In this document: positions 4,798 to 48,296 of the stretch, piece by piece
Numbering within the stretch: position 1 is the stretch's first letter
Layout of the letters: every line of letters begins with the position of its first letter
NCBI GenBank assembly: GCA_951230915.1
Contig: OX579635.1
Coordinates: 10,230,001-10,294,000 of the forward strand
Direction of reading: 5' to 3'
DNA: 64,000 nt
From: Antitrichia curtipendula
Taxonomy: Eukaryota > Streptophyta > Bryopsida > Hypnales > Leucodontaceae
Made by a program: the position numbers and the translations under genes
The notes under the pieces: generated by a model
Databases searched by the model: none
Told to the model about the DNA's origin: nothing
The model's input: the letters and a program-made list of their open reading frames with translations, nothing else

Positions 4798-5028
4798 GTA
4801 AGTACGGAAATGAATTTGCGTCATATCCCGGCGCCTTCGCTCCACCCTCAACCCTAAAAGCGCAGTGTGCAATGCTCTCGCACCTCATGCCTGCCCGCTG
4901 TTCAGTAGCGTAGAAGTTGTGTCTCAGTCACCAGGGAGTCGTGGTCTGACTAGGTGAAAGAAGAATGACTCAGTCATGACTGGTGTTAGTAATGGTCCAG
5001 TCATGAGAAATGACTGGGGACTCGGAGA

Positions 5029-11271: not shown

Positions 11272-12452
11272 GCGGCCAGAAAGCTCACACCGCTGCCGAA
11301 GACTAGGGCGAGGACATCTCAGGTGCAGACGGGGAGCAGCTTGAAGAAGACGAAGAAAGTAGGATTTAGAAGTTAGATTTTAATTTTAGAGTTTTCCGGA
11401 ACGGATTTTCCGTATGTGGGCCTGTTTCCGGAATTTTAGGGATAACTTTCATTAGCATTCCGGTTATCTCGGATGCTTCTGTGGTTGGTTAGCTTGATTT
11501 TCGGTTGTCTTTTTCCTTTTTGTTTTTGTTTTAAATGGTGAGCAGGTCTGTTGCTCATTCATTCCATCCTTGTGCAATTTCAGTTTTTCATTTCATTTAC
11601 CTTACTTTGATCCAAGCCACTTAGTGAACTGTCCATGTTCTAAAGTATTTTTAAGAACTTGAGTGATGTGTTTGTGTGCTTTGAGAGTTGTGAGGAACCG
11701 GGAAGGAGGAATCCGGATTCATGGCTGTTTTGATTTAGATCTTAGGAGAGGATCCTTGAAGGAGTTAGATCGGATTTGTGGGACTTGTGCATTTAGGGTC
11801 TTTAAATTACTAGAACAGTAATCCGATTGGAGTGAAGAGGGTGAGGTTCCGGAACTATTCCTAGTTCCGTGCGGAGTTAAGCGGCCGCCAAGGGGAATAC
11901 CCCCACTTACCGGAAGACCTGCCAACTGCAGCACCAACTACTTTTTCGTAAATTTTCTCTTGTGTCTATATCGAATAATCGTATATCTGTCGTTGTAGGG
12001 GATAAGGGGAAACGGATCCTGTGTGACCTGCTTCCCGGATAGGCCATCCGGAAAGCCGTGAGGAGACAGGAACCTACTTCGTAGCAACATTTAGATCTAT
12101 TGAGTGTCTTGGGTTGTTTTGTAGGTGTTAGAATATGTGATTGACAAGTGGTGGAGTCCCTGCCTCTTTAAAATGTAAAAGCGGACCCCCCTGAAGGTAA
12201 AACAGGGGTATTACAAACCGAAGAATTACTGTATCCTGATTCCGGAAAAGGACGGATCCGGATTAGAAACCGGAAAGAAGTAAAGTTCTGGAAGAGGGAA
12301 AGAGAGGTTTTGGGTTCCCTTGAGGTGTTTTAGAGATAATCCGATTAAATCCAAATTCATAGCAACATAGTAGAGTCCCTAGGACGATTTTCCGTGTCAT
12401 CTAACCACAATGGTGTGTTAAAGGTGCTTACACCTAGATTACGCGTACGACA
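11272..12452. other. 3' non-coding part of the gag-like insertion
   Basis: No gene. It carries repeated TCCGGA/CCGGAA motifs and pyrimidine runs near 11500. Near its end, ACACCTAG occurs twice about 20 bp apart (12430-12437 and 12450-12457), leaving slight ambiguity about the exact right border. Confidence 0.5.
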
Positions 12453-14164
12453 CCTAGTTTCACACTAAACCTATGATGGGGTGGCCAAATAGGGTTAATC
12501 AGGCCTCATGGTGGGAAATACCACCCACCCACCCACTATGGGTGTGGCTTTAAATTTAAAATCATGCCACCACTCTGGCAGGTAGTGAGCCAACTACCCC
12601 ATTATGATGATTTTTTTGAAATCTTTCCCTCCAGTTTTGAGCATGTAATAGGCACCCGCTCGCATTGTCTCACTTCTTGAGCTTTGGCGGGGGGGGGTTC
12701 GCTTTGGTGTGGAGTTTCTTGTGTGACGACTCTTGAGCTTCCTGAGAATGGCAAAGGTCCTTTTCGCTTGTTTGTTGTGATTTGAGTTAGTAACTTGCTG
12801 TGATCTTGATGCTTTCTACCTCATGAACTGTTTTACTAGTTCTAGTTTTTTTGGTGTAATGGATTTGTGACATAGATAGTAATTGGCTGTAGCTGAAGAC
12901 ACCTCGTGCATCCTCACTGACTTAACATTGTTTTGTTTTGTTTTTGGGACGGGTACAGGTGAGGCTCAGCCTTCAAATCCTATTTCTCCAATTTGGAATT
13001 GGTGCAAGATTCTACGTTCAAACACATGAACTCATTTTACTTGGGTTCCTATTTCTTGTAATTGAAACTTATGAATAGACATGGATGGCACGTTTTGATA
13101 GTCTCCAGACTTGTAGTTACCCAACATTTTGTTTGGTAGTATCTAGTTTGATACTATAGTTTACCCAAAACTATATCTTATGTTGATGTAAAGTGATGTT
13201 ACTTACAAGTTAACATAAAGTTAGGTTTTGAAAAAGGTGAAGCCCTGTCTCAGGGGTGTTTCAGGGGTGTTTCAGTCTTAGTCCCTTCAACAATTGCTCA
13301 TGAATTAGTTTCCATGATTTACTTTTTTTGCCAAGTGAAGACAAGTTAGGACCTTTTGCCTTTGGGGAATGATTAAAAAACTTTTTAATCCATAGTTCCC
13401 TTCAATTAATTAAATATCCCAATTGTCAACTCCTAGCACATGTATCCACACTTATAGATTTTTATTTTTGGTTGCTCTCTAAATATCCTATGGGGTAGCA
13501 CTTTAATACCAAAATAGATTAAACATGTCGACACTATGTAATTTGGAGTGATTATGATTATTTTTCTCTCTATGGATTTTTAGCCTATTCAATTATTTTT
13601 TTAAAGTTTTGGGTACTCTTCATATATTCTATGGAGTAGCTTTTAAATACCAAAATTTATTTAATCAGGCAGGCACTATCTAATTTGGAGTGGTGATTTT
13701 TCTATAAGAATCCCCTCTATGGGTTTTTAAGCCTATTTAGTGATTTGATTTTACTATGACCTAGTTTCACATTGAATCAACTATAGGTGGTCAAATAGGA
13801 GTAAATCAGGCCTCATGGTATGGGATACCACCCACCCCACCCACTATGGGTATTGCCTTAATTTAAATTTAGTGGGCAGTTATGTCCAACTACTCCATTA
13901 TGACCTTTTTGAAATCCTTCCCTCCAAGTGCTTAGGTTTGAAATAGCCTCCCACCTGCACTGTCTCACATCTTTGTGTTTTGGCTGCGGCGGTTTGCTTC
14001 ATTGTGGTGGTGTTTTTTGTGTGACGAATCTTGGGCTTCCTGAGAATGGCAAAGGTCTCCTTACTTTGTTGATTTGTAGTTTGATTTAGAAGCTTGCCTT
14101 GACATTGATGCTCTGGACCTTTTTTACCAATTCTTGTTTTTGATATGATGGATTTGTGACATAG

Positions 14165-14184
14165 GGGTGTGAGTTTACTAGACC
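14165..14184 (+). repeat. Left terminal inverted repeat of the 16.5 kb element
   Basis: GGGTGTGAGTTTACTAGACC, immediately after the target copy ATAG. It pairs with 30656-30675. Confidence 0.75.
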
Positions 14185-15591
14185 TTTGTACTTTTTAGGT
14201 CACAAACCAAAAATGACTATATACATTTTTTTTTCTTTAACTTTATCCAAACTTTAAACATGTTTTTGAGGATTCTCTATGGTCTCATGGCAGGGTAAAT
14301 GTCTTAAGTTTATAGGGTTTGGACTAAAATCGTAATAAAACCATTGATTGAATATTCAATTTGTACTTTTTCAAACAACTACTAAGATGTCACAGTACTT
14401 CAAATAACCAAATAGTACATTATTTTTCATCTTAGAGGTTCCGTATTCTGCTGTGCATCATCTTGAAAAGACCGCTCAGGGTATTCTATCCAAATTTGCC
14501 TTCCAATTTTAAATTGAATACCTGGTGTGGCCAGGAATTCTGAATTATGGCTAGATATTTTGACATGAGATAACTTTGTAGAAAATTTTGCTCTGTTTAG
14601 AATTTTTAGATATCCTGAACGTTCACCTCTTTTTCTAGAATGGCTTCCTTTTAGAATTTTCTATCTCACTTTTGTAATGATTAAAAAATTGTTGCAAATC
14701 CGTGCTCATTTGTATCGGAGCAGAGTGTTTAGTGTACATAAAGTATTTTGTATATAGATTCCCTCGTTAATGAAGCCGCCATATATTTCGGTTTTTCTAT
14801 TTGTAGTGACCGCCAAGCCCTGATCCATTGCGCCAAGTTGATTCTTCTCAATCAGCCACGTCGAGTCGTCTCTCTCAGTTAACTCAATCTTCCTCGCGGA
14901 AAAAGATTCTTTGCATGGTTGCTGAATTTTGATCGGTCCACCTTCCACCTATCGATTTTCTTGCTCTCACTCTCCTGCTACATGTCCGTTGAATCATAGC
15001 ATTATCTGTTTTGTTGATTTCGTGTCCGTTACCCTACTGTCTTTGCCATGTTTCATGTCTGTTGAGTACCAACGTTCATTTTTTGCCTGTTCTATGTCGT
15101 TTTAGTTCACGGCGTTTCATATTTTAACGTGGATCTTGCCTTCAAGAGAAAAATTGCTTTCCTGTTGCTGTCATTTCTATTGCTAAACCGTGAAGTTTGC
15201 GTTGACGTGAATTGTTTTCTTTTTGCCAATGTGTTCTCTGTCAAAATTTTGCCATATTCGGAGTCTATGTCAAGGTAAATTGCTTCTCTGTTCCCGTCGT
15301 GTATTTCTCCATGTTTTTATTGAATGAACAACGTTGTTTATGTAGCAGAATTTATATTGAAGTACAACGCTCTTTTCAGTTGCATGACTTGGTTTTCTTG
15401 TTGGTTGTGTATTCATGTTCTATTTGTCACTTAATTAGTTTCATCTACACTTTGTATTCACAACCTTCTTATGCTGCTTGAATTTGTGTTGCAGAGCCCG
15501 TCCATTGGAGATTCATGAGCCCATACCTTCCTGTGATATTGTTTCAAGTTGTCTGTTGTTGCCTGTACGGTGGTCATATAGATTCCAAAGA
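14185..15591 (+). other. Leader region upstream of the transposase gene
   Basis: AT-rich with several GTAC-core motifs. A TATATAG motif near 14753 and pyrimidine-rich sequence downstream could be the promoter and leader of the transposase transcript. I see no convincing coding region. Confidence 0.35.
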
Positions 15592-18500
15592 ATGTCTACA
15601 TCAAGGTCTCCTTTTGTTCAGAAATTAATTACATCCTTCTTTCCTGCAATTGAGACGGAGTTTGAGATATCGTCTGTTCCAGTCCAACAACTAATTACTA
15701 CATATTTTCCTGCAAACGAAATATATCGTGAGATTCATTTGGTCCCAACCACTCAGCTGGGCTCCATTTGCTTATCAACTGAGGCAGGGCCCGCTCGTTC
15801 GCAGTGGACTAGTGATTCTGGATATGTGTCAGAAACTCCATTGTCCAAGCAAGGGAAGAATGAATTCTATTGGGGCCAGTGCAATAGCATAGATGAATCT
15901 CCTCCCCATGTAGTTATCACTAGTACAATGTCTTCTTCTTGCGACAGTGCGGTCAGTTCAAGCTCTCATTTATTGTCTAACTTGAGGACTTACCCTGCTC
16001 GCAATTGTAGATCGATCATGTTTTGAAAGGACCAAGAGTTGTCCTTACAAGTTCTAGATACTTTCAAAAGAGTTTTGCAATGGGTAATGCTGCCCAAAGA
16101 AAACGTGCAAGGAATGGTTGCATTAGACCTGGTCCAGCAGATAGAGTTGCCCAGGCTCGTATGCATGAAGAGGTTCTAACCGCAGCTATAGAAAATGCAA
16201 GAGAGAGGAAGGCGCGTCAAAGAACACGTAACAAGGAGAGTTTACAAGGGACCCTACTTTTAGCGGTAGCGCCTCCTGATCGTGACGTGAATGATCACTT
16301 ACCAATGAGAGAAGTGCATCGGAGATCACTACGTTTATCTCAATTTGTACTTGATGAATTGTGAAGCTGTCCAGGTCCTAGTAGTAGGAGAGATGTCATG
16401 GAGAAATTCTTGCGCCATGATACTATAGGCCCTTTGCTTCCTATGTACTATCCTAGGCACAGGAAGCAAAGGTAATTCATTCATTCTTTTGTAACTTCAA
16501 GCATGAATTGCAATTGGTAAAAGTTGCAAATTCCAATGAATTTTTAGCAAGGAAAAGTGCTCTTTTAGATGCTGCCGTAAGTTTGGGGACTGATGGGGTC
16601 AGAGCTTTGTCACGAGTTCTAGATACAACAACCAAGAGTATTAACTTGGCTTTGACAAGAAGGGTTGTTGCAAACGATGTTCAAGATATTGTGCCAAGAT
16701 TACGATTGCATAGACTTCAAAGAGCAGGATTGTCTGATTACGTCAAGAATTGTATCAATGTCTGGTGGAATGGTCAAACTAAGGTGTCACCAAACAAAAA
16801 GGATGTTATCAGGCACAAGGTGGGCCGTGCACAATGGGTGGAGCCTCATCCTACACACTACCTTTATGAAACTCAGGTATGGTTCTTTTTTGAAGTTTTG
16901 TTCTAGTTTTGAGATTATTTAATTCTTGAATCCATAGCTTTGAGTACAAATATCATGAAGTTCATAAGATAGGAATGCCTTTGAAATGTAAAATATATGC
17001 ATGTCCTAATAAAATAATTCTAGGTGACTTGATGCTTATCTAGTGCCTTTCATTCATTGTTATGATTACATAAAGCACTTACAGTAGTCTTTCATGGACT
17101 TGTTGATGACAAACTCCGGTGTAGCACATACTGTGAAGTTGGAAACAATTATAATACTAATTTGTTCATTTAGTACTTAATGCTTTCCAATAGTTGTACT
17201 ATTGTACCCAAGAGAATTTACATATGTCCTTATCTGAATAATCAAGTCACTAACAATATTTTGTAGTAGAAGTAAAATACAATTACCAGATTTCAATAAT
17301 TATGTTTAGTAGAAGTAATACTACTAGGTCCCTTTAAATATTGATATTCATTGTTACCACTACTCTTTGTATTTTAAAAGAGGCAATGATCTATTCTCAT
17401 TGTACATTTTTGTACAAAATATAACATTTTGATTGTTTCAACATAATCCAAAGTACAAACCTCGGATCTAAGTATATCTCTGTTATACATAAAGTACAAT
17501 TTTACATAACCTTGTATTCTAACAATTTTTTAGATACTTTTTGTACATGGAACTTCTTAGTATGTACATTGTTCAGTCCTGGGTCTAGTATATTTAGATA
17601 CAAATAGTGTTTTTAGCTATTCTAGGTGTGACTACAGTACAATTATCATGTCACACTAACTATTTTGTGATACAAATATTAGAAATTTATACTTTTTGTA
17701 CAATGATAATTATGAAGTTACTTTAATTGTAAGTTCACTCTATATTCTTTCTATAGAACAAATTTTTCAGAACGTCATAAACACATATTGCATTCCTAAG
17801 GGTGCTATGACTTCATTCAGTTATTTTCACCATGCTAGCTTTCTAACTTTTCTCTGTCAACTTTTTCACTTCAATTTACTAGTTTTCTAACTGCCTTTTG
17901 TTTGTGGTGGTTTTCTCTGTTTTGCAGACCTATTTTTTCGTGCGTTTCAAAGAAGCTCATCCTGAGTGTAATGTGCGGTAGAGGGCATTCGAAAGGTTAA
18001 AACCTTGGTGGGTCAGGAAATTGAAAGAGAGGAACACTTGTTGCTGTATTTACCATGTGGAAATGGATTTTATGAAAACTGCTTTAAATAACCTAAGGGA
18101 TAGAGTGAGGGTTTTGCATGCATCTACAAATTGTAGTTGTGGCTGTTTAGTTTGCTCAGGCAATGGGAAGGGAGGTACAAAGGGTGGTTGCCATGCTCAC
18201 GATAATGTTTACAAGCGCATGACTTTAATGTGGGAAGCTTGTGTTTGTCCTAAGGGTGAGTATGACTTATGGCATAGACTAGATTGCTTGATAAGAGACT
18301 GTACTAATTGTGGATTTCATCTACTAACCTTTTGTGACCAGGAGTTATGTCATTCTTCTTCATTTACTTTGAAATGGAAGTGCTTTGAGTACTACCAAAT
18401 AGGAGTGGATGCAAATACAGGGAAGGTTAAGAAACGATTGAAGGAGGCTTTCAAAGACACTCCAGTATATGTGTTCTTACCATATATGGAGAAGACGGTG

Positions 18501-19799
18501 ACAACATTCATTACACACAATTTCAGAGCTAGATGGCAAGATGAGCAATGCCAACTAATGATGACCAACATACCTGAGGGAGTAATTGTTTCTCACATTG
18601 ATTTTGCTGAAAATTATTCGTTTGCTATTCAGAATGAAGTGCAAAGTTTGTACTACTTTAGCACTTCTGTCACAATACTGGTTCACATTACCATGTGGAA
18701 GGAGGGAAATGACATTTTCAAGCAAACACACTTTTACATTTTAGATGATAAAATCCATGATTCATCTTTTGTGCAGCATTGTTTATTATTACATTGGGAT
18801 TGGTTGTTAGATTCTGGTTTTACACCTTCAGAGCATTGGGTATTTAGCGATGGTTGCAGTGCACAATTTAAGTGTACCACTGCTATGTTCTTTGTTGCTA
18901 AATACCCAATGCTAACTGGAGGTTGTCTTATGAGATGGAATTACTTTGAATCTGCACATGGAAAAGGGGAGTGGAATGGTGCAGGAGCTATAGTGAAGAG
19001 AGCGTTAGCAGCGGAGCAAATTGAAAATCTGCTTCGACCCTTACAAAATGCTACACAAGTGGTTCAATTTTTGGAGGAAAAATACACAAACCGGGTTCCT
19101 AGTTCCTATCATCAATCAACTACCTCTACTCTGTCTAGAGTATTTTGGGACATTGCCGAAGGAGAAGTTAATCATGATGACACTAGTTTAAGATGTAACA
19201 CTATTCCTGGTTCCAAAAGTCTACACTCTATCATAGGATTCTCTACCACAGATCCTTGTCTTCTCAAAACTCGTGCATTATCTTGCTTTTGTATTGCTTG
19301 TGTTGATGGTGACTGGGGTAACTGTGAAAAAGTATCACATGTGCAGGATTGGCGAGTGCAGAAGCTAGTACCCGTCAACGCCTACTCAGTTGCGGAACAA
19401 GTCGAGGAGATGGACAATGTCGAGAATTGGTTGCATGATGGAGTGTCGGTGACGATTGGCGACATGGTAGAAGTTGGAGACAACTTCATGGTCCCTGCAG
19501 AGGACGATAACGAAGACGGTGTTGAGTTCTACATTCTTCAATGCGAAAAGACCAAATTTTTACTGGAAGAGCCTCTGTCTTGTCCATGGGGAGGGATTTT
19601 CATGGCAGGGGATGCTGTTATCTAGGGTAAATACTATAAAAAATTTGGACGCTTAGAGAACACATATGTATTTTGTAGTAGGGCAGTGGATGCACATGTT
19701 GATGCTCATTTAGTTTGTGCTTGTAAATTTCCTATGACTCTTGCATCACACAGGATGAAAGGTATCCAGGTTTATAAGTTATCAGCTGAATCGCAATGA
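15592..19799 (+). CDS. DDE-type transposase of the 16.5 kb element (multi-exon, in-frame stops)
   Basis: The proposed start is ATG 15592 (MSTSRSPFVQKLITSFFPA). Coding blocks follow at 15592-16020, 16023-16471, 16502-16876 and 17928-19799; the last join, across a 1051-bp intron, is phase 0. The main exon has a cysteine-rich region (CCCIYH, CSCGCLVC, CVCPKGEYDLWH, CTNCGFHLL). A likely catalytic core follows: HIDFAENYS (Asp 18600), FSDGCSAQFK (Asp 18849) and FESAHGKGEWNG (Glu 18948), a D-x82-D-x32-E spacing typical of DDE transposases. In-frame stops: TGA 16362, TAG 17979 and TAG 19623. After the last TAG, 57 sensible codons (GKYYKKFGRLENTYVF..) run to TGA 19797, so the natural end is probably there. 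The frame between the first two blocks is not resolved. Confidence 0.65.
16877..17927 (+). other. Large GTAC-rich intron of the transposase gene
   Basis: GT donor at 16877 and TTTTGCAG acceptor ending at 17927. It is AT-rich, without coding potential, and holds about 12 GTAC-core motifs, several-fold above expectation for its composition. Confidence 0.65.
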
Positions 19800-21033
19800 A
19801 TGTGTGAAGATGCATTATGGGAATGGTGGGCCTTTAATAATGTTTAGAGTTTTACTAGTCTAGGATGTCTGATTCATAGGTTTGTAAAATATTTGTATGC
19901 TACCAAGTATCATTGGATACTAATTATGTTATTTGTACTTTGACCAGAGTATTTTTGGATACTTCAAATACAGCTTCAGACAGTTTTAAGTGGGATAATC
20001 ATGTGACGTTTGTGGGCTAGTATTATCAAATTATATATGCATTATAGCATTCACTTGAGCAGACAATTTAGCTCTTAATATTCTACTTTAATTTTATTTT
20101 TAGTACTATTGCCTCTAATACCTTTTGTTGCCATTTAGCTGTGGATAATTTTCATTAGTAGTGCTCTTATCTTTGATACACTTAGTTGCGGCAACTCTCA
20201 GTCTGTTATAGTAGCTTTGGTTGGGATTCTAATGTATGTATTGAATCAACTAGCTCAATAGTTTAAAATTGTGATGCTGTTGTTTTCCAATTAATCTACA
20301 TTGCATTGGTTTAGGGTTCTAGGATATGTGAGATATGGAATTATAAAAAGACATAAGGAATGGTTCCGTTTGATTTCTGTTTCACAAAGTTGAAAACTCC
20401 TGGCCAAATGTGAATATTGACACTACCGTTGATTTTTTATCTTATTCTTACAATTGCTTTCAATACTTGTTGCTAGTTCTCTTATACATTGATTCAAGTA
20501 CTAGCAACATAAAAAATGGTTGCATGAAAGCCGTATTTCATACGTTTTATTATAGTGTACAAAGTGTACACTATGTACATTGAATGTAATGGCCCAAAAT
20601 TTTATAGTCATATTACTGTTGCTTTTCAGTTCATCCTAATTGCTTCGGTAGCTAGTTCTTGGACCTTAGAGGCCTTAATTCTTGTACAAAAAACGTGAGA
20701 ACTGGTTGCACGCAACTTGAAAATCAAATTCTGGTAATTGTTTAATTCACATAGTTCAATATCATTGACTTTGCCTAGACTTTGTATTGACAATGTTATG
20801 GCTTCTCATATTAGTTACTCTCTCAAAGACTTTGATTAACTGTTATTGGACCCTTACTTGCACTCATTTTCAAGTTACCTTAGATGGTACAGAGTAGAAG
20901 ACTAATAATCACTGAAGTAAAGGAAAATTCAAAACACATGCATTACAATACATGTCTTTTAAAATACAACTTATCAAACACAATTTAGTCAATTGAAAAT
21001 TATGCTACACATATTATGACCTTCATGTTGTTA
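19800..21033. other. Intergenic region between convergent genes
   Basis: AT-rich sequence between the 3' ends of the transposase gene (plus) and the SET gene (minus). No ORF of note. A cluster of three GTAC motifs lies at 20555-20580. Confidence 0.6.
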
Positions 21034-21992
21034 TCAAATGGAATTTGACAACTGATCTCTACAAAACATGCTCCCACACTTACAAGAGAAACACGGCATT
21101 GTTGAGTCACAATCTTCAAAGTCAATTCCATAATCCCAAGTTAACGCCTCCTTCGCCTCAATCATTCGATTTGTGAAAAATGCAACATGGTAAAAGCTTT
21201 TACCGGCATTCTCTATCTTCACAGGCACATCAATCAAGTTAGCATCCCCACACCTGCAAAAGATACATAAATTACTGATTAGAAAACTGAAATGCATTCA
21301 TGCACTTGCTTACCACTAGATAGAACATGGTAAATGACAAACCTGTGGTTCACAAATCTTGCAACGTTGCCATAGTGAGTGGCATCCAAGCAGAAGGCTG
21401 TCTCGTCATTTGCTTTCCGCTCAGTGGCCCAGTCAGCATCAAGTTGCAAACTGTATGAGGGACCATCACAGACTACAAGGTTCCTAATTGCCATCTCTGA
21501 ATTTGTCAAAACCTCTCCAGTCAACTCAAAAACAAATGCACCTTTGGGGATTGACTGAATAGCTCGAATCCCCCATCCAGTATGCATTGTATGGTACACT
21601 TCTACCAAATATTTCATCCCCTGTTGAACCACACGGTTACCACATTTACTGTGACAGGGGCATTTTAAATTCCACTCCCTAATGAAACCCCTACTAGCAT
21701 TACCAATCTTTGACAAAAACTTATTTTTCAACAACCCACCTAGATTGTATGCGAATTCACCACCGGTGGCCTTTGCACACTGACAAGGAACTGCTGCTGT
21801 TAGACAATCTCCTGAGACACAAGAACAACACTCACTTTTCCTTAACCCAACAATAGAGGTATGTATATAAGCATTATTATGAACTACACTAGCAGCTATA
21901 TACTTGAAAGGTGTCAATTCTGATTCATTAGGTACTACACGGATTGGAATTGCCTCCAAGCCTCTAGACAAGTCTTCAGCATTGTATGGAGC
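21034..21992 (-). CDS. SUVR1/2/4-class SET domain (histone H3K9 methyltransferase-like)
   Basis: Two exons, 21992-21343 and 21253-21034, are separated by an 89-bp GT..AG intron that splits the Arg codon of FVNHR|CGDANLID exactly. Pre-SET: CCSCVSGDCL..PCQCAKATGGEFAYNLGGLL and KCPCHSKCGNRVVQQG. SET: GWGIRAIQSIPKGAFVFEL, LQLDADW, CLDATHYGNVARFVNHR, YHVAFFTNRMIEAKE and LTWDYGIDFED. Post-SET: CFSCKCGSMFCRD. Known plant SUVR proteins have the same series and transfer methyl groups to histone H3 lysine 9. The NHR-containing pocket, the WDYG tyrosine and the Zn ligands are retained, so this part looks catalytically competent. The 5' edge at 21992 follows an AG acceptor (CTCTATAG), so more exons lie upstream, probably the minus-strand blocks at 22.3-26.8 kb. 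Confidence in the domain is high; in the full gene model, moderate. Confidence 0.9.
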
Positions 21993-22259
21993 CTATAGAG
22001 AAAAAACCATCAAACCACATTAGAATGTAGAAACTACAAACTACATAAGTTAGCTCTTGTAAAACAAAGTGTCTATTTCAGTAGCCTCCACTACGAAGGT
22101 AAGATACATTTTTTCCTAGGCTACATGATACTTGGCTACATGATACTTGGCTAATTGAGACCAAGATTGCAAACGGAAATAACTTACTATAACCAAAACT
22201 ATGAATGCAAATAAATACTAGAACCTATACTCAGAACAACAAAACAATTGCCCAAGTAT

Positions 22260-23969
22260 CTACGACCGTCTACGCTTCTTCAACAAGGTTTTGTCTACTT
22301 GCATAGACAATGTTAACTGTCCTTGCTGCGATCTTGTATTTCTCCTGCCCGGAGGTGAAAAAACTTTGGTGGAATCATCCGGATGGCATGCTGCCTCCAC
22401 ACCCTCATCTTCTATCCCAGATGCTATGATCCTCAAATCTGTGAAGGGACTAGGTTCTGAACCTACAAGGTTCTCCACAACAGTTTGGGTTCTCTCACCC
22501 TCAACTAAAACTTTGTGCCTCTTCTTCCCCTCCTTCTTCTCCTTTTTTCATTTCTTTTGAGAGTACCGTCCTTCACCGTGTCTTCCTCCTGTTCCTCCTT
22601 CTGTTCTTCTGATGCTGCAAATTGCCCCTTCCGAAAAACAACCTTGAACCCCGTGCTCAAATCACTAATTCCGCCACCCCCAACATGTTTGTTACCTCCA
22701 CCTTTAACATGTGCAGAAGATTCCTTAACCAACACCTCCCCTTCCTCACAAACCACTTCATCTAAACCCCTCATCATCTTGGAATCTTTGTCAGTAATTC
22801 CCTTCCCCTTCCCAAAAATTATCTCACAGCTTGCCTTGCCTCCTTGCGCATGTAAAGAGACTTGCTCATCAAGCTGAGCACTGTAGTGTAGGGGTGGTAG
22901 GGGCAGTGGTTGCATGGGTTCTTCAGAAGACCCTTTGCAAATGCCAACCACTTCTTCTACTTCGACAAAGTGAGCCTCCTCTCCCTCTGTGCAGTTGAAG
23001 GTGTCAGCCACCTCTTCCACTACGTGGAGGCATGGGTTAGTTGCCTTCTCCATGTTGCCGATGCAGGTGTTAGCATGTGCTCCCGCTTTGATGGTGTGAG
23101 CCCCTTCTCCCATTTGCTGTACACGGGTGTCAGACCCCACTTGAACCTTGTGAATAGCAGCCCCATCTCCCAATTCGTGGATGCTAATCTTCTCTCCCAC
23201 GTTGTGAATGTCAATCTTGTCTCCCACTTCCTGGATGTCATCCTCCTCTCCTACACGCAATGTCTGACCAACACCCCCACTGCCTTTAGACATTACAGGA
23301 ATAGTGTCTCCATCAACCCCTGCCAACCATTTGCTTGCATCATTCCGTAAAGACTCTTCTTCCTTCTCGCTGAACCCCTAAATTTCTCCAAGCGGATTTG
23401 CCAGGTGAGCGCCTTCTCTGGAAATCTGCTAAGAAGACAAAAAACATATTAGCCTTGAAATTAAAGACTACACATGCTGATATGGATGGAATGACACTAT
23501 TTTTGGGGAAAAAATTTACATACCTGGCAATCCACTTCCTCATCACCTAATGGCAATCCATTAACATTGCTATCACTGCTCTTATTCTGAGATTTTGAAT
23601 TTGAGACAGTGGTACCGGAGCTAGATGGCAAATTCATCACCTTCACTGCAAGCCCATTTTCGCTTGATTCTGACTCTGAGTTGAATTCTGTCTCTGTCTC
23701 CTTGTCGCTTGTAGTCACTAGTTTTTTAGCCTTCTTCTTCCTCTTTCTCGCATTCAATTTCAAAGCCGGACTATCAACTTCACCCCAAACTCTCTTGTTT
23801 GAATTTTCTACATCATTGGCCTCTTTTGGTGCAATGTCCTCCTCAGCAACTTTAGACAATCTAGAACCTCCCCAATGAATAGTCTTGGGTGAATTAATAG
23901 CATGGCTAGTTGCTCCTTCTGTGAAATTAGCTGGAGAGTTTGCAGGATGAGCAAACTTCTGGCAAGAAA
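22260..23969 (-). CDS. Acidic low-complexity linker exons upstream of the SET exons
   Basis: Exon 23969-23524 ends ..GDEEVDCQ at a GTATGT donor. A 98-bp intron joins it in phase 0 to an exon starting at 23425 (ISREGAHLANPLGEI). That frame meets a TAG at 23378 and continues GFSEKEEESLRNDASKWLAGVDGD. The exon then shows short repeats of the type (D/E)-x-I-x-(E/N)-(V/L)-G-(D/E). A poly-A tract near 22545 shifts the frame, after which VLVEGERTQTVVENLVGSEPSPF continues to TAG 22260. The content is hydrophilic with no catalytic domain. Orientation and in-frame joins suggest it bridges the RING-like exon and the SET exons. The splice to 21992 is not certain; CAA|GTAGAC near 22300 would be in phase. 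Confidence 0.5.
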
Positions 23970-24970
23970 CTGCACAACAAGCACCGCAATGCAATCAATA
24001 TGCTGAAATCAACAACCACCATGTCTCTCCAAAAGGGAACACTTATCCATAATTACATACATCAAAAAGTATGACAACTAAATTATGCAGACTGAATTTT
24101 ATTTGTAAAGGAAGCCAAACAAAAATATAGATTTCGAAACAATAATTAATATTGTACTTTATCAGTACTAATTTACAAATACACTATGTAATCTTGAATA
24201 CAAAGTGAAAATTAAGTATCAACTTTACAAAGAAATGAGTATAACAAAAAACGCAAGTACTTAAAAGAAAAAATGTAGTTCTGGCCAATATAGACTTGAT
24301 ACAAATTCAAAGAACAAGTACTTTAGAACAAAATATGAGTACTATTTAATATTTTGCTTTTGTATACTATATAAATATACATATGAATAGTTAAAAATGG
24401 GTACAATAAGTATAGTTGATGTGAATTAGTACTCTATAAATGGGGTACAAATAACAGCACTCTACTTCAAAACAATAAGCTTGTGAATTAGCAATTCAAT
24501 TTTCCCAGTGTTAGAGATAATAAGTACAAATCATTGTACTTATATTTGTTTATTGTATTTTTGTATAAACACACTATGTAAATTCTAATTGGCGTTCCCT
24601 TTTGTACGTTTTCATACATCCTTTAAGGTACAAACTGATATTAAAAAAACAGCACTACGTTGTCAGTTACTCTTTTGTAATAACTATTGTATCTGTTAGT
24701 GCATTTTTAAATAACAACTTTGCTAGTTCAATACTATAGAGAGCGTTTGAATAATACAGCAACAAAAGTGTCATGGTCAACCATATATCCTACACATAAA
24801 ATAATGGACTTGTAATTGTACTATACAAACCTTCAAGAACCCTTAACAAAAAATATAGACGTGTGGGTTATACTAAGATTTACAAACCTTCAAGAACCCT
24901 TAACAACAACAACTATAGAGGTGTGCGTTATAATAAGATTTGAAAGTTAAAAAATAGAGAAGCGTCTTAC
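23970..24970 (-). other. GTAC-rich intron of the minus-strand cargo gene
   Basis: Donor GTAAG at 24970, acceptor TGTGCAG ending at 23970. The join completes an ATT codon and keeps one frame (KCPPA|ISCQKFAHP). AT-rich and non-coding, with about 13 GTAC-core motifs in 24120-24830. Confidence 0.6.
24825..24938. repeat. 57-bp tandem duplication
   Basis: ACAAACCTTCAAGAACCCTT starts at 24825 and again at 24882, and the following 35 bp are similar. It lies inside the intron. Confidence 0.85.
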
Positions 24971-26848
24971 TAGCAGGTGGGCATTTTGATTTTGCCAAAT
25001 CTAATCTGTCTTGGAGGATCTTCTTCCTCTCATCACATAAACCTAGCATTGAAGACTTCTCCACAAGCTCTGCACTCGGCTCGCCCCAACCGTAACTCCG
25101 GTGCCATTCTAGATGTGGCAGAGAATGACACCCCAAGCTAGTGCATCAATTGCTCTTACTGAACACAACTGATGCACAAAAAGGATGATAGAAATGGCGG
25201 CAAGATGAAACTATAATGTCACTATGGAGGAAGGGAAATGAACAAAGAGAGCAAACCATGAGTTTAAGAAAATCAGTCTCCTTGCTGAAGCATGACAATT
25301 GTAGAGCATCCTCCTCAGTAGGGGCATACACCATCGGTCTAGGAAAAAATACTCCCCCAAGCCTTCCTGTCTTGAAAGACCACGATTCAGCTACCAACGC
25401 ATCAAACTCCAACCGATGGCATTGAACCTGCTGGGCCAACTTCACCATGAGGGTGTCCGCCCCTTCCAAGTCAATGTTAACTTCTGTCAAGTGCTGCTCC
25501 TCCGTTTCCAGTTGCTCTTGGAGCATCTCAACCTTGATGAGCTCACGTCCCACGTCCATACCAGAATCCCTCATCTCCTCGATCAATTTTTTTTTCACCT
25601 CCATTTGCTTGTTAAAAATGCCTATTACAGACTCAATATCTCTCTTCTTCCATTGGCACTTCTCTGCACTTGATTTGGCTTCCCTTTGCTGAATTTTCAG
25701 CACCTCCCCTTCCATGTGTACAACGCTCATGAGCACTTCCACCTCAACCTGCCGCTCGGCTGAAGATACCTTGGAGAACATTCCTGGTCCTACCTACAAA
25801 TCAACACAATCTGCAGACACCCCCGACTCCCCACTAATTTCTCCATGCTTTGACCGGGTAAGAGTAGGCAATCTTTCCATCGTGAATCCAACTGCGCTAC
25901 CCCCACCTTCCTCTTGCTTTAACCCTCGCTCCAAGTGAACTTGATGGACCTCCAGTCCATGCCTTGAAGGTTTACCGGTTTTAAGGTACTTAACAAAGAA
26001 CTTTTTAGACTTTGTAGTTTTTTAAGGTCTTGATCATACCGATTGCGCTGCCGCTTGTTTGTTTCCTCTCCAAACAAGCACCAATTAACCTCTTGGCTTC
26101 CCTTCTCAAACTCCATCACAACTCCTTCCGCAAAATGCATCTTGAGCAATGTAGGTACCTCGTTGGGGCCGTGTTGGTACATAATTGGATGGAGCTGTCT
26201 GATCCTCTCTCTCAATTCGGGAAATTTGCATTGTTGCCAGAAAAAACCGTTGCGCCCACCTTCACCAAAGGGCTCTCCAAAATATTTCCTCACCACCTTC
26301 GCTGCCATAGAAACCTTTCGGTACCGATGAGAATTTGTATCTGAGGAATTTAGAAGCGCGTACTCCCTCGCAAAGTCTTCTTTGGTCAGCTTCCGTGGAG
26401 GTTGCTTCAGATTACTGATTTTGATGTCGACGTCTTCGGGCGTTTTGAAAATTTTCGTCTTTCTCCCCTTGGTCGGCGCTTTCTTGCAGTTGCTCTTGTA
26501 TTCCTCCACGACACTGTCGCCTTCGTCAATACTATAGTCTTCGTCATCAGGCCCCCCCCCCTCCTTTTGCGGTAAGGTGTCATCATTTTGAGGAGGGCCG
26601 GGCATTTGGTTGCCATCGTCATTTCCTCGAGCTGTCTTCCCCTTCTTCCGTTTCTATCCGTCCTCAATGTTGCGTCGAGAGGGCCCCTCTGTTTGATGCG
26701 AGGTAGTCACCTTGTCATTCCTTGCAACGTCTGTTTGTTTTGTTGTCTCCTCCCTCCCTTTTCGACCATTGTCTCTGCTTTTCACCGCACTGAACCTCCC
26801 TTTACCGAAGCTGCCCTTCCCCGACTGTGTTCCAGTAGAACGCTCCAT
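24971..26848 (-). CDS. Coiled-coil plus RING-like zinc-finger exon of the cargo gene
   Basis: Starts at ATG 26848 (MERSTGTQSGKG). A basic/acidic N-terminus contains an in-frame TAG at 26654, followed by a conserved-looking block (HRYRKVSMAAKVVRKYFGEP, FFWQQCKFPELRERI, QEVNWCLFGEE). A frame change near 25935 leads into a long charged coiled coil (IESVIGIFNKQMEVKKKLIEE..LEQLETEEQHL-like). Next is a zinc finger, CSLCSFPF..SSCRHFYHPFC, and after an in-frame TGA (25146) CTSLGCHSLPHLEWHRSYGW, giving a C2-C-x-H-x2-H-x2-C-C2 RING-like pattern. The core xCxHxYHPxC also occurs in the RING protein at 42.6 kb. It splices in frame to 23969. RING proteins are typically ubiquitin ligases; activity here is unproven, and the stops suggest decay unless they are read through. 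Confidence 0.5.
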
Positions 26849-28293
26849 TGTAGCAAACTCTGAAGCCCAAAACAACAAGGAAGAATGTAAATAACCCAAA
26901 ACTCTTAATCCACGCATGCTTGGAATGAATGGATTTCCCTTTCAAAACTTGAAATAATATTGCATCTTCTTTGAAATTCTAAAGCAAACAGCAAACAAAC
27001 TAACTAAGCAAGGAAAAAAAAAAATGCTGAGAACTTCAACAACCATAGACAACATCATTACCAAAACTGAATGTTTTGTGAAATCAACATCTCTACCATG
27101 CACTAAAAAGATCTAATTCATTTCATTCTCACCAAATCCATGAAAAGCATAGTCTATGAATCCAACATTTCGAACGCAGATGCGCAGTTGCTGAGCCAAA
27201 AAAAATCATATCCATTTGAAATCAACCAACAAGCAAACTAATAACTTAAAAGGATTTGTGAACTCACCAAAAATGTATCCGCAAAAACTAGAATTATAAG
27301 AATTGGCTGCATGAATATTCTAGATCTTTGCAAAACTTTGGAGGAACTTCCTTCCGGAAAACAAGTTCCACTACAACAGAAAGACAGAAATTACATAACA
27401 AAAACTACCGTACTCACAGCTCATCCTCTCCAATTTTCACCAGCTAACTCTATGAACTTCTCTAACGATTCAAAAAATTGTGCTTGCTACAACCAAATCT
27501 ACGACCACATTCCTACTTGCTGAACGACCCACACACTACATGATTTCATTTCTAACGGCAAAGCAACTTCAAAGAGGAATAGAGATGAAACAAAATGCAA
27601 AGCTCGCAACAACGGAGCTTCTGCAGCACTACAAAGAACAACGGAAAACTCTGAAAAAACAAAAACAACTCGTTGGCGCCAGAAAGGTGCGAGACGAAGA
27701 ATTGGGTCTCGGCCACGTGGGAACAAAGTGACTGGCGATCACCAGTTATTCTTGCACCATGTAGTCTGAAATACCTACAGTCACCGGTTGTAATAATTGA
27801 CATCATCAGTGGTAACCCCCGATCACCAGTTGCAAGGATAGAGTACTATACGTAATTGTTTGTGACCCCTAGTGACCGGTGAAGTACAAGCAAGTTAATA
27901 GTTGTACATGAGAACATATAGCTCAATGATTTGGTTCATTTAAGAGTGCTAATTATTTGTTGCACAATGATATTTCACAAATCATGTTAACGTGATGTGG
28001 TAGTCCTTGCTTCAAAGTAATGCTCCATACTATAATAGTATTTGAGGTATAGTAATCTTTCATTTTAATTTGTTAAGATCAAAATATTACCTTCCATCTA
28101 AAGGCATGTTTATTTATTACTTATAATGAATTATTGTCCTCTAACTACAATATATTTTTATACATACTCCAAATGTCTTTGTAAACAATGGAAGAATCTA
28201 AAATTCCAAGCTAAACCATCGTTTTCATATAGTTTTCATTTTAGCCCAAGACAATTTGCACCCCTAAAATACTCAAACATAGTTAAATTTATA
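26849..28293. other. AT-rich non-coding part of the 16.5 kb element
   Basis: Upstream of the cargo gene. Probable promoter and leader sequence, but no clear motif. Near 27727-27885 the motif TCACC(A/G)GTT recurs three or four times in both orientations. I see no gene. Confidence 0.5.
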
Positions 28294-28706
28294 GGGAATT
28301 GCTAAAGCCACATCCAAAATTGCTAATGCCACACCCTTGTGAGCATGTAATTTGAGAATTCAATGCAATTTTTTAAATTCAAGTGATCTATCATTCATTC
28401 AATCATTGCATTATCATCTCCTTGAAAGAAAGAAGAACAAATACAAAAAAAAAACTAAACTTTTATTGCACCATTGCTATTTTCTTAATGTATTTCTGCT
28501 TTAAGTAGTTCAAAAATCTTATATTTTTAGTTTCAATTTTAAAGCACCTCTAATATTTTGAATATAGCCTTAGAATGATGAAGATGAAACAAATCTGGTG
28601 ATCCAAGTAAAAAAAATCAACATTAAAATCCCACATTTCATGCTCAAAGCACACCTTCGGGGGGGGGGGGGCATTAGCAATTTTGGGTGTGGCTTTAGCA
28701 ATTCCC
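28294..28706. mobile_element. 413-bp MITE with 8-bp target duplication
   Basis: The left end GGGAATTGCTAAAGCCACAT is repeated inverted at the right end, and the match extends over about 40 bp. It is flanked on both sides by AATTTATA (28286-28293, 28707-28714). There is no coding capacity. The GGG ends with an 8-bp duplication fit a Mutator- or hAT-mobilised MITE. It contains a run of 13-14 G near 28656-28670. Confidence 0.9.
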
Positions 28707-28714
28707 AATTTATA

Positions 28715-30655
28715 AGCCATTAGGAAACCCCTAAACTTGCAAATGAAGTTGTTGCTTTAATTTCATCATTTGTTATGCACTAAGATGAATTTACACATTA
28801 TTATTACGTATGAAATAGATCTTGAATGTGATTAACACCTAAAACGTGCCTAAGACAATTATTTCAAATGATTTCAAGAAGTATAAATATCATTTATTAT
28901 GCATGTATGTAGTTTAATTCCAAGTCTTTATAAATGTGTTGTCACAATCATTATATTGTACTGCTTCATTACCAACAATTTCAAAAAATGAAATACATAT
29001 ATGGTCACAATGAATTCATCAATTAAAACAATGAAAGAAATAGTAATTTTCAAAAAAGAACTTGGTGAATGTAAATTTTATTGCAAAAATTCAAAACACT
29101 GAAACACCATTCAATTAGCACTCTTGTTATATAGTGTATCAAAAATGTGACATTTGCATAAGGGTCCATCTGCTAATCATATGATTTTCAATAATACCTT
29201 GAGAATATATTGATTATTATTAAAAATTATTGGCGCATGTTCAAGCAACATGCAGTAATTAAGGAACTATTTATTAAAGAATTCTATATTTAATTAATGT
29301 ATCAAAAGAGTTTTATTCAAACTATTAGGATTGTCACACGATTATTTGATGAGTGTAAATCCTATACTGAAGTACAGCAATGATAATTTTATCATGTTAA
29401 AAATATGATATGAACAACATTTCAATAAATATGTATCTATAGCAATGCAATCTTAAATTTCTTATCAATTGTTATGTGGTTTAGAATGCATTCTATAATA
29501 TCATAAATTTTGACCATATATATTAGATGTGGTAGAGTAATTCAAAAGCCAAAGTGGTACATATTTGAAGTCTAATAATTACCTTATATATTAAAATACA
29601 CACATCATAATTTAATTTTAATGCAATTATTTAAAAAAATGAATATTTGAACATTTACTGTATATTGATTGAAGATTCTAGACACAAATCAATATAGGAT
29701 ACTAGTATATATGAAGTGTGGCACCAAAAACATCCCTAAAACCTATTATATAAGAGCAAGGCAATAAGGTCAAAATTAGAAGGAGGAAAAAAGCTTTCTA
29801 CCATAATCACAATGATTTCTAATATATTGTAGATACTCAATTTCTAATAATTCTTGTCACCTACTTTCACATGATTGTTCATATATGAACTGAAATTGCA
29901 AATACAATTTTTATGGGTTAGTCAATAGTCAATATTCTTCATTTCAATTTACTTGAAGGTCAAAAAAATAAAAATAATACTTTAAATGTAAACCTTCACG
30001 TCCAATATTTTGATGTTTATTCCTTTTGTTATCTTCAAATTTCATTTTGTACTTCAAATTCAAAATGAAGAAACAATAAACTCTTCTAAAGTGTCCTCTA
30101 TCGCATATGCAATTTAAATTTCTTTGTAATAAAATCTTGCAAATAGGGAAACAACACATTATTTTTTAATTCTAATTTTGTCTTGAAATCATATTAAAAA
30201 TATAATACAAGCGATTCTGCATCCAATTTACATCTAGACGAATGTTGATAACCCTAAGAATCCCTTACATTTTGCCATAAATCGTAATTTCTGTCGTTAA
30301 ACACTGGATGACATCATCTACAATATCAACACAAAAAGGGCGGGGTCAAGCTCATAGGATTCGATCCTTTAATTCAAACAAAAACTTTCTAAACACAGGA
30401 AAGGAGCCCCGAAACACGGCTTTACAGTTGTTGTGAACTAAATCTTGCAGTATGAGCCAGATAAGCACAAGCCACGTGTCAGATTCTCTGACAGTTGACT
30501 TCCAAATCATTGGCCAAAATACATCCAACATTGCAGACCACACGATGGGAATCCAAAGAATTCCAGAGAATCCTCGATGTTGAATAGTACAAAATAATAC
30601 AAAATAGTATATATTTTATGCATTTGTACACACCAATTTTGCCAAAATTGACATG
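28715..30655. other. AT-rich non-coding right part of the 16.5 kb element
   Basis: Very AT-rich with no credible ORF. The last ~100 bp regain GTAC-type motifs (TAGTACAAAATAATACAAAA) next to the right inverted repeat. Confidence 0.6.
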
Positions 30656-30675
30656 GGTCTAACGTACTTGCACCC
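30656..30675 (-). repeat. Right terminal inverted repeat of the 16.5 kb element
   Basis: The reverse complement reads GGGTGCAAGTACGTTAGACC, paired with 14165-14184. The target copy ATAG follows at 30676. Confidence 0.75.
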
Positions 30676-31100
30676 ATAGATAGCAATTGGCTGTAGCTGA
30701 AGACACCTTGTGCATCCTCACTGACTTAACATTGGGTTGTTTTGTATTTTGGGACGGGCACAGGTGAGGCTCAGCCTTCAAATCCGATTTCTCCAGCATG
30801 GAATTGGTGCAAGATTTTATTGTCAAGCACATGGACTCATTCTTCTTGGGTTCTTTGTTTTATGTTTGAAACTTGTGAATAAGACACGGATGGGCCATGG
30901 CACTTTTGATAGTCTCATGACTTATAGTTACTCAATCTATTGTTTGGTAGTATCTAGTTTTGATACTTTTGTGACCCAAAATTATTTTATGGTGATGTAA
31001 AGTGATGTGAGTCACTGTGAAGCTTAAAGTTAAGTTTTGACAAGGTGAAGCCCTGTTTCAGGGGTGTTTCAGTCTTAGTCTCTTCTTCTTCTTCTGTTCA
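30676..31100. repeat. Right half of the split tandem-array unit
   Basis: Continues the unit that stops at 14164: ATAGATAGCAATTGGCTG, GGGACGGGCACAGGTGAGG, CAGGGGTGTTTCAGTC, then a TTC microsatellite. It marks the right border of the array. Confidence 0.85.
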
Positions 31101-35160: not shown

Positions 35161-37236
35161 TCATACCTTCTTCGTCGTGCCATCACGTTTCTTCTCCGTG
35201 GCGAATGTTACCTTTGATCTTATCTCCCGCTTCTCCGCGGTTGCCTGCACACACATGGGGAAGCTCTTAAACATCATCATGAAGTGAAGGTGAGGGAATG
35301 CAACGCTTTTGCAAGGCCGTGGTCTGCGAGTCCCCTCACCTTCCACAACCTCAAGAAATTCATATGGTAAGCCACTCCTGCGTTTGGCAAGCATTTCTGA
35401 TATGGAGTCGTTTGAAATTGATGGGTACTTCTTTTGAAATGTAGTGACATCAGGGCATTTCCAAAATGCGGCCAAAATCGGCCACAAGTAACGCTTGAGG
35501 TATTCCCTGTCGTCACTGAGGGTACGTAGCCACTTCCCGTAGAACGGTGTTGTTATGAAGACGTTGTCCTGTGGATTGCAGTCGATCCTACAACTCTTAC
35601 AATCTATTATCAACGTGTTTTCTACAGTGAAGGCAGGGTAGCACGCATACACGACATCTAGATTCTTCTCGGACGTTTTCCCCTCAACCGGTTTCACCCC
35701 AAATTCCTCACAAGAGACACACGACCAACAAAACAGTGGATCCTGCTCGGAGGCTGCCCTCAAACCAGTGAGCATTGTTGGAACAACGTCATCCATGTAC
35801 GGAGCGCTCCTGCTGCCCCAAAAAGCGACTCGAAAGTGTGAGAAACAGCGACTGAGGAATGGTTTCAACCAAGGTCTGAACACTACTCTCCTGCAGTTTG
35901 TTCGTGTGCTAGGACGGATCCTACTATTTGGGTTTGGGACGGACAGCAAACTGCAATCTAGGAGAGTTCCCTGGATGTTGAAAATAACCAACTTTGGGCC
36001 ATGCTCACTACTACCTCCTAGCCTCTCAGTCAAAATGTGTTGCACGGATGGAAACGTGACGTTCTGGGATAATGCAAATGGAATGGCGTGCGCGGAGATA
36101 CACACCTTGGAGGGAGACTTGGGAGGTTTCCTAGCCTTCTTCGACGGCACGGCTGCGGCGTGAATTGCAGCAGCGTGGTCGACATTGGCATCTTTGAAAC
36201 CCCCCTCACCTCCTTCATCTGGGATGACCTCCACGTTGACGCCGTCCCCTTCTTGCAATTGGCCGAACTGCGGGACATCCCCTTCACGTGCAACGGCAAC
36301 TTGCCCTTCCATGCCTGTCGTCACTTCCGGGGGAGTGTCCACTGTGCCCACAACCACGGGTTCTACCTCCGACTCCTTAGACAAATTCGGGCATTCTTCA
36401 CCGCCTTGTTGTGGCAAAGGCTCAGCCCCCCCGATAGAGGCACTGCTTGAATCCCAAGAACCTGCAGTAGCCCCCCCCCCCTCAACAAGTAATTCACGGC
36501 CCCCATTTCCCAGTTTTTCACACCCGCCTTGAACAACTAATTCACACACCCCTAGTCCCGGTAATTCACATCCCCCTTGACCGTCTAGTTCAGGACCACC
36601 TTCTACTTGTAATCGAACCCCTTTCTGTACCTCGGGGCCACTCACGATTGGCTTCAAAGGCTCGGGAGTAGACAGGATCCGTGGTGTCGGTGAGGAGTAC
36701 GGGTCTTCCTCTGGCAGAGCAGCTACCGCCGCTTCCAACGACGGAGAAGGAGCGATAGTATCCTTTAGTGGAGTGGGTTCTCGCTCTGCCACCTTCCACC
36801 GCGGTGATAAGGGAGTGGAGTGGGGTACCTTGTGGAGCTCTAAGTCAGAAGACAGGGTAAGCGCGTCTTTCGTTGCCAACTGCTTTCCACCGTCCACAGT
36901 CGCCCTCTTGTCTTCAGATTTGTCCTTCCGTCTGTCCCCCGCTCTCTTGCCGTGGATTACCTGGTTGACCTTCTTCCGAGTCTGAACGTCGTCATGCTAG
37001 CCAACTCCAGAGTCTCGATTATCCAGAGCAGACTCATTGATGGACATGCTGCCCTCTCTACTAACCTTGCTCCTACCTATATACCTCTCGAACATGCACC
37101 TCAAGTCCGAGATTGCTGCCGCCTGCTCAGTATTTTTTTCCAATACAAGGGAGAATTTTGCATCCACTTCGTGCTTCAAAGACTGCACCACCTCCTTCAA
37201 AACTGGTTCATTTGCGCCCGCACTGTATGCAGCCAC
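35161..37236 (-). pseudogene. FCP1/HAD-like pseudophosphatase gene of CACTA copy 2
   Basis: One frame runs from 37236 to TGA at 35161 with a single TAG at 36997. From MDGGKQLATK (36897) it gives 578 residues. The N-terminal ~280 residues are low-complexity Pro/Gly/Glu-rich. From about residue 300 an FCP1-homology (NLI-interacting-factor) domain is readable: LVIFNIQGTLLD, VVFRPWLKPFLSRCFSHFRVAFWGS, YMDDVVPTML, FCWSCVSCEE, NTLIIDCKSCRIDCNP and EYLKRYLWPIL. In active members motif I is DxDGT; here Asn307 and Gln309 replace both aspartates, and the later DD is D-C, so phosphatase activity is not expected. An intron probably follows EFLEVVE (GTGAGG). It occupies the position a transposase would hold and is paralogous to the copy 3 gene at 58843-59880. 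Confidence 0.75.
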
Positions 37237-39149: not shown

Positions 39150-39715
39150 GTCCCCGTCACGTCCTGTCCGTCCGTCAGCATGTCCGGACGGACGTCAGGA
39201 TTCAACCCCGGCGTCCGTCAGGATGAAATCTGGACGAGAACCGTTGATAGAGGATGAAAACTACGGAAATGGATGGACGTTCTTCGCCAACGGGCGGCGA
39301 GCTTCCGTCGACGAGCACGGAACAGGCGGGATGGACGGGTATCTGGACGGAAAACTGGATGACCATGTGGACGGGCGGGTGGACGGGCATCTGGACAGGC
39401 ATGTGGACGGGAGGGGGGGCGGTTGTGTGGACGGGTATCTGGACGGGCGGGATGGACGGGTATGTGGATGGAAAACTGGACGGGCGGGTGGACGAGCGGA
39501 TGGACGGGCATCTGGACGGGTAAGTGGACGGATAACTGGACGGGCGGGCGGACGGGCATCTGGATGGGTAAGTGGACGGGTAATTGGACGGGCGGGTGGA
39601 CGGGCATCTACACAGGTAAGTGGAAAGGGGGGTGGACGGGCATCTGGACGGCTAAGTGGACGGGCGGGTGGACGGGCATTTGGACGGTTCTGTGGACGGA
39701 AAAATAGACTGGACG
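39150..39715. repeat. GACGG array 1, 12-bp period
   Basis: After GTCC/GGAC clusters at 39150-39200, a ~12-bp unit GGACGGGCATCT / GGACGGGCGGGT repeats directly from about 39290 to 39715. Long open frames in several frames here are a by-product of the period. Confidence 0.9.
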
Positions 39716-44202: not shown

Positions 44203-44459
44203 TCTTGATACCTGTAAAATGACACACACGATACTGTATGCGAATACAATGACAATTTGCTTTGCCTTCTGTTGCGTGAAGGCAACTGAAATGTGGCAAA
44301 ACAATGTCAAATGTATAACACTTCCCCTCAAATTGCAGAGCGAAGCTTTCTCAAGCTCGGACAGTGCAACTCAAAAGAGGAAGCACGTAAACTGTCCAAA
44401 AAAGTTTACTTATACCCCCCAATTACCGACCCGATTAGGCAAGGTAATTAACATAACAT

Positions 44460-48285: not shown

Positions 48286-48296
48286 TTGGGGTGGAT

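Follow-up and report, generated by a model that had tools for sequence, protein, structure and literature searches.

Why should a DNA transposon carry a gene of the histone methyltransferase kind, and does such a gene work for the element or merely travel with it? The question is raised by a 16.5 kb element in the window, the whole 64,000-nucleotide stretch of DNA analysed here. The first-pass annotation had described a transposon with a SUVR-class SET gene and left two readings standing: that the element encodes its own chromatin modifier, or that it captured the gene by chance. Close and distant copies of the element in the same assembly bear on the choice between them.

Insertion site and copies of the element

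The whole element spans 14165..30675 (16511 bp), limits that are set by its ends, its flanks and the match limits of other copies, and has a GC content of 0.374 compared with 0.454 in the remaining window. At the left junction GACATAG is followed by GGGTG from 14165, and at the right end CACCC, closing at 30675, is followed by ATAG. The inverted ends and the 4-bp target duplication that had been claimed are both exact: the terminal inverted repeats (left, 14165..14184, plus strand, GGGTG..AGT....TAGACC; right, 30656..30675, minus strand) share 14 of 20 bases by eye count, and the duplicated ATAG stands at 14161..14164 and 30676..30679. The element splits one unit of a short array, of which two neighbouring units in the window, 7813-8569 and 12452..13264 (plus strand), are uninterrupted. 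When the element flanks are joined with a single ATAG they align across the junction with these units at 76.0% and 78.5%, respectively, which bears out the proposed empty sites. Both units read GACATAGATAG at the junction without interruption, so ATAG was duplicated upon insertion. Inside the element, an inverted pair at 20523-20559/28792-28828 encloses the minus-strand gene; its 73% complementarity is judged, by rough estimate, to lie within chance for AT-rich DNA. An inverted repeat at 28291-28709 is MITE-like, with 46-nt arms that are 91% complementary and lie 327 nt apart.

Copies were sought with the 547-aa transposase exon in the window's own 400-Mb assembly of 303 contigs. At least 99 matching pieces were found, the window's own included, a lower bound in that the search scores best candidates only and a count in which some elements appear as two pieces. 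Fourteen other copies have 93-97% transposase identity (one over residues 1-374 only); the remaining matches comprise one at 79% and groups at about 65-73%, 40-48% (in halves) and 39-43%. The close family, designated F97, was sampled as 20 kb around the first ten of the 14 copies in table order, and the distant families as one copy each from five groups, F79, F71, F47, F42 and F39 (by per cent transposase identity).

All ten close copies align to the window element in pieces at 95-98% nucleotide identity. The match starts exactly at 14165 in nine of them, a common left end, and stops exactly at 30675 in seven; among the other right ends c8a extends beyond its 20-kb stretch, while c3a and c1b are cut or interrupted. 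A perfect 4-bp duplication flanks each of the seven other copies with both ends visible, making eight of eight with the window added, and the duplicated sequences are all different. The SET region (21034-21992) is present in ten of ten close copies at 97.5-98.7% nucleotide identity, and in three of the five distant-family copies; a close copy without the SET gene, which would have spoken against the first-pass interpretation, was not found. An identical exon layout recurs in insertions on seven contigs (C1, C3, C5, C6, C7, C8 and C10), with family ends and with separate target duplications where these are readable, which disfavours the notion that the SET exons are a host gene lying in place. 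A nested insertion as the carrier of the SET gene was rejected, since full-length copies have a common layout.

In seven close copies the interval from exon 3 to the SET exon (at 22073-22081 of the window) is longer by about 0.2 kb, and about 60 bp are missing at 17831-17894, with the reverse arrangement in the window copy, c1c, c6a and c7a; by this pattern the copies form two subfamilies. The extra stretch was considered as a missing 5' exon and rejected; in c10a it resembles an insertion with inverted ends.

Elsewhere the window holds CACTA-type pieces (Transposase_21, DUF4218) at 1655-5853, to the left of the array, and hAT-type pieces at 51697-54874. CACTA-type domains, the CHG mutation pattern of the element copies and the kind of SET point to a plant genome. 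Two ORFs, 58846-59919 and 35164-36996, both on the minus strand, contain an NLI-interacting-factor-like phosphatase domain; in the former the transposase-associated PF13963 is in frame with it, which suggests that the phosphatase is carried by CACTA-like elements. A single-exon ORF of 616 aa at 48520-50367 (plus strand) has a weak protein-kinase match just below the curated cut-off. Four repeat runs (39200-39880, 44450-45140, 47500-48310 and 54990-55460) are open in several frames on both strands, three of them with a PSRPLDG-like repeat reading, and are probably minisatellites.

Transposase and accessory gene

The transposase gene reported by the first-pass annotation is present, although its assignment to the DDE type was wrong. 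Its last exon lies at 17928..19625 (plus strand; start taken from the splice signal) and contains the ORF 17982-19625, which encodes 547 aa. The 5' exon region, 16011..16876 (plus strand), is broken in the window copy by a stop at 16362-16364 and a frame change, and is a single open frame of 296-297 codons in eight of nine other matching copies. An acidic triad, D207/D290/D332, is invariant in six families and makes the enzyme DDD, not DDE; these are presumably its catalytic residues. In the window transposase residue 332 is Asn, and a stop lies in frame at 17979-17981.

The transposase had no credible match in Pfam. Neither the single sequence nor a five-family profile found a relative in viral contigs, nor did the profile find one in prokaryote contigs or the PDB, and structure predictions for the transposase and the SET exon (mean pLDDT 30 and 32) gave unusable models. 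We regard the enzyme as Sola-like, with kinship at the level of sequence presumed; what fits Sola is the 4-bp duplication in all eight copies with both ends, the DDD transposase and the size. Sola elements are described as having a 4-bp target duplication and a DDD transposase (PMC10741241), the former also for Sola2 (PMC3627910), and some exceed 15 kb and are known from Physcomitrella (PMC10741241, PMC9033089). Compared by description, the two thus have duplication length, catalytic type and large size in common; no SET gene is mentioned in the parts of the Sola accounts available (PMC10741241, PMC9033089), whereas the F97 element carries one.

The accessory gene lies on the minus strand, convergent to the transposase. 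Exon 1 (24971..26848), which runs from a candidate ATG to a candidate donor, encodes an N-terminal domain, a coiled coil and a RING-H2-like cysteine/histidine cluster. Homologues of the RING part occur in F71, F47, F42 and F39, and the finger pattern, C-x2-C ... C-x-H-x2-H-x2-C, is found in these and in the window, below Pfam cut-offs in the families scanned. Two linker exons follow, exon 2 at 23524..23969 (50% identical between c10a and F79) and exon 3 at 22299..23425, with a proposed donor at 22298. Exon 4 (21343..21992) holds the pre-SET and the first part of the SET domain, and exon 5 (21034..21253) the end of SET (NHRC, LTWDYG), the post-SET CxCx4C and the stop codon. The convergent SET exons thus stand as annotated, 21992-21343 and 21253-21034 (minus strand), joined by a GT-AG intron (21342-21254) within the NHRC motif, where tblastn alignments to F79, F71 and F47 break alike. 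Splice phases are compatible with one protein of RING, linker and SET, in which the junction of exon 3 with the SET exon is predicted from splice signals. A stop codon lies just beyond the last linker donor, in F79 and in the close copies, so that a RING product without SET is possible.

The pre-SET, SET and post-SET module is present, by Pfam in the sister copy c10a (Pre-SET 5.4e-15, SET 8.9e-18, nearly full domain length) and by alignment for the post-SET CxCx4C. Exon 4 of the window scores 4.8e-10 for SET and has no Pfam Pre-SET match; the closest solved structures to it are EHMT2 (94 bits) and EHMT1 (93), followed by SETMAR (78) and SUVH6 (68). SET is found in F79, F71 and F47 at 1.2e-17 to 4.6e-20, and above gathering thresholds c10a, F79 and F47 have both Pre-SET and SET, and F71, with no Pfam Pre-SET match, SET alone. 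GWG, NHRC and the post-SET cysteines are retained in most family copies; the F71 and F47 copies are each without at least one pre-SET cysteine, and in the sampled F71 copy SET and the post-SET part lie in different frames. The absence of an SRA domain separates SUVR from SUVH proteins, and none was found by Pfam in the scanned pieces; the putative SUVR label of the element gene rests on this and on SUVR-like motifs. No WIYLD domain was found by Pfam in the upstream exons of the window (scanned piecewise) or in the 527-aa ORF of F47; SUVR2 and SUVR4 have one (PMC4260354).

Outside the element, a minus-strand frame of 820 aa at 41911-44370 contains a RING-H2-like finger below the Pfam cut-off that by eye is much like that of the SET-less F39, and is possibly the RING gene of another element; BLASTP gave no relationship between this ORF and the N-terminal domain of the element.

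Decay within the family and selection between families

The window copy is dead, having lost a pre-SET cysteine and the invariant aspartate of its transposase and acquired stops. Three stops and a frame change interrupt exon 1, and a stop and a frame change exon 3; together with the lesions in the transposase they agree with the decay that had been noted in other parts of the element. The accompanying claim that the SET region keeps its key residues fails: at the position aligned to a cysteine of EHMT2 the window has Trp, and the eight other close copies translated have Cys, as do F79, F71 and F47 in the alignment.

SET exons free of stops and frameshifts occur in seven of 11 copies, the window included, the broken ones being c3a, c8a and c7a (one stop each) and c6a (an indel). 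Of the 11 copies, one (c1a) has a RING exon region that is open over 663 codons, and three (c10a, c8a and c1c) have 389 open codons in exon 3; none of the 11 has every part open. Mutations were counted in ten SET copies, with c6a dropped for its indel and the most frequent base at a site setting the direction of change. C>T or G>A account for 62 of the 71 changes, at per-site frequencies of 0.47 in CG, 0.31 in CHG and 0.10 in CHH contexts. Such a weighting towards CG and CHG is the mark of methylated, silenced DNA, hence possession of the SET gene did not protect the family against silencing, and the mutations suggest that the host still methylates the copies.

SET changes private to one copy are neutral, with 42 nonsynonymous (stops included) to 19 synonymous where 43.8:17.2 are expected, and so are those of the transposase (89:29, expected 88.9:29.1). 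The stop-free SET exons of the window copy, correctly observed by the first-pass annotation, are therefore no sign of selection, and the idea that SET has decayed less than other parts of this copy was rejected. Changes common to at least two copies lean synonymous in SET (4:6, expected 7.3:2.7, P = 0.016) and show no such lean in the transposase (14:4, expected 12.3:5.7), both in small samples. The dN/dS comparison that had been proposed for the close copies, summed over pairs of nine copies, which are not independent, gives 0.33 for SET and 0.89 for the transposase.

In the F79, F71 and F47 copies a homologue of SET lies in convergent orientation at a distance of 0.7 to 5.9 kb from the 3' end of the transposase, with 70-71%, 45-59% and 48-51% identity in the larger pieces (30% in a 95-residue piece of F47). 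Their alignments break at one NHR/C site. In F71 and F47 a RING/coiled-coil homologue lies upstream of SET, while in F79 the 5 kb examined, which reach only the linker, hold SET and linker. A RING-like homologue is present in the single copies of F42 (E 1e-4) and F39 (1.5e-10), but in the 10 kb that follow the transposase SET was found neither by tblastn nor by a six-frame profile search, which scores the three positive families at 1e-101 to 1e-122.

Comparison of c10a with F79 gives a SET dN/dS of 0.224 over 287 codons (95% bootstrap 0.148-0.327) at a dS of 0.89. The pre-SET has 0.302, the SET core (SET plus post-SET) 0.176 (0.095-0.291) and the two linker stretches, exon 2 first, 0.39 and 0.34; the transposase has 0.076. 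Among the measured parts of the accessory gene, the SET core is under the strongest constraint. F79 and F71 give a SET dN/dS of 0.222 at a dS of 1.65, and further family pairs are saturated and yield no ratio. A SET dN/dS of 0.22 between families means that the product was needed while the families diverged, and purifying selection at this level makes SET a selected part of the element and not a chance capture. From these alignments the SET gene looks like a working part rather than a passenger, and of the two original readings the element's own chromatin modifier is the one favoured.

Possible roles and origin of the SET module

The reading that we lean towards is a multi-copy, Sola-like DDD family encoding a RING-SET chromatin protein with which the family would regulate the chromatin of its own copies. 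The window element would be one decayed copy of the DNA transposon family F97, whose opposite strand is predicted to encode the N-terminal domain, coiled coil and RING-H2-like finger joined to a pre-SET/SET/post-SET module of the H3K9-methyltransferase kind. The product would be made, would probably be an active lysine methyltransferase, judging from the conserved NHRC, GWG and post-SET cysteines, and would be recruited to the DNA of the element through the N-terminal or RING part of the protein, where it would most likely damp or time the element's expression or guide its insertion. Catalysis may be dispensable to such a module, given that Arabidopsis SUVR1, SUVR2 and SUVR5 are reported to have no activity in vitro (PMC4260354).

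This last point also speaks for a rather unlikely alternative, in which the SET protein acts as a decoy that competes with or diverts host silencing proteins without methylating, and so keeps the copies expressible in the manner of VANC. SUVR2 is described as working in silencing without detectable catalysis (PMC4260354), and plant elements with anti-silencing proteins are known (PMC10398659). Retention of GWG, NHRC and the post-SET cysteines in most copies and the constraint on the SET core (0.18) argue against a non-catalytic decoy. A possible target is the six-mer TTGTAC/GTACAA, which occurs 38 times in the element where 10.7 (first-order) or 18.2 (second-order) are expected; VANC targets are motif-rich noncoding DNA. 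It is enriched in the window element (z 4.3), c10a (3.8) and F47 (5.8) but not in F42 and F39 (0.8 each); against this, F79 has no enrichment (-0.3, in 5 kb), F71 is weak (2.1), and in the rest of the window z is 0.0 left of the element and 2.2 right of it. Since the six-mer was picked from the data, we offer as a hypothesis that the protein encoded by the element binds to it, in the way of VANC (PMC10398659).

A more specific form of the preferred chromatin-setting model can be built on the same motif, and we hold it to be doubtful: the RING-SET protein would recognise TTGTAC/GTACAA in its own noncoding DNA and place H3K9 methylation there, so that the element and not the host times its quieting, as a mirror of VANC, with SET gained once by fusion to an older RING-like gene.

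As to origin, a single fusion of the SET module to an older, RING-like gene of the element may have occurred in the ancestor that F47, F71, F79 and F97 have in common. The transposase tree (eight rows) requires a single change to account for SET presence; the branch concerned has support 97/95, and the SET tree does not conflict with it. The two SET-less rows are long branches flagged by the program, the root is not known and 36 of 500 label shuffles are as clean as the observed pattern, so a single gain is inferred only. Independent capture of a host SUVR gene by each family, with the purifying selection being that of the host gene, would accommodate a SET that is more divergent than the transposase between the window element and F71 (about 45% against 71% identity), but is improbable in view of the linker stretches outside the SET module that F97 and F79 have in common (50-61% identical), the compatible trees and the agreement in strand and alignment break. 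Chance capture of a host SUVR-type gene fragment, carried without function, is extremely improbable: it would suit the broken window copy and the neutral private changes (42:19, expected 43.8:17.2), but neutral decay after insertion is normal for a transposon gene and is seen in the transposase likewise, and it is strongly disfavoured by the between-family dN/dS of 0.22 (upper limit 0.33, at dS 0.89) and by SET in four families on the same strand with the same alignment break.

Several known systems come close to a transposon family with a SET gene. SETMAR/Metnase is a single host gene made from Hsmar1, and joins SET and transposon as F97 does, but it is not a mobile family. F97 has no Harbinger Pfam match, and its 4-bp duplication is not of the length usual for Harbinger elements. 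SET methyltransferase genes are reported from HarbingerS and MuDR elements of Phytophthora (PMC12730594, citing Kojima and Jurka, Repbase Reports 2014); like F97 these are DNA transposons with an acquired SET histone methyltransferase gene, but they belong to the Harbinger and MuDR superfamilies and to oomycetes, whereas F97 has a DDD transposase with a 4-bp duplication in a plant-like genome. In fungi, transposons bearing TET/JBP likewise comprise several lineages with a chromatin-modifying enzyme, in that case a DNA dioxygenase instead of a histone methyltransferase-like gene (PMC12730594). VANDAL elements with VANC are plant DNA transposons with their own chromatin-acting protein (PMC10398659, PMC5735166), but VANC removes silent marks while the F97 protein has a module of the mark-writing kind. 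Among the matches listed in a search of open papers, a scope without Repbase reports, no plant transposon with a SET gene appeared by title or start of abstract, and no open paper was found that combined Sola, SET domain, DNA transposon and methyltransferase. SET-bearing transposons as such are already known, from oomycetes.

A transposon with a chromatin enzyme is seen as answering back to host silencing, and such an enzyme counts as a tool instead of a passenger once there is evidence that selection keeps it. In the present genome several transposon families have diverged and all the while retained an enzyme of the silencing type, the host's weapon. With a maintained SET and related, seemingly SET-less families as natural controls, the question of why a parasite carries the silencing machinery of its host becomes directly testable.
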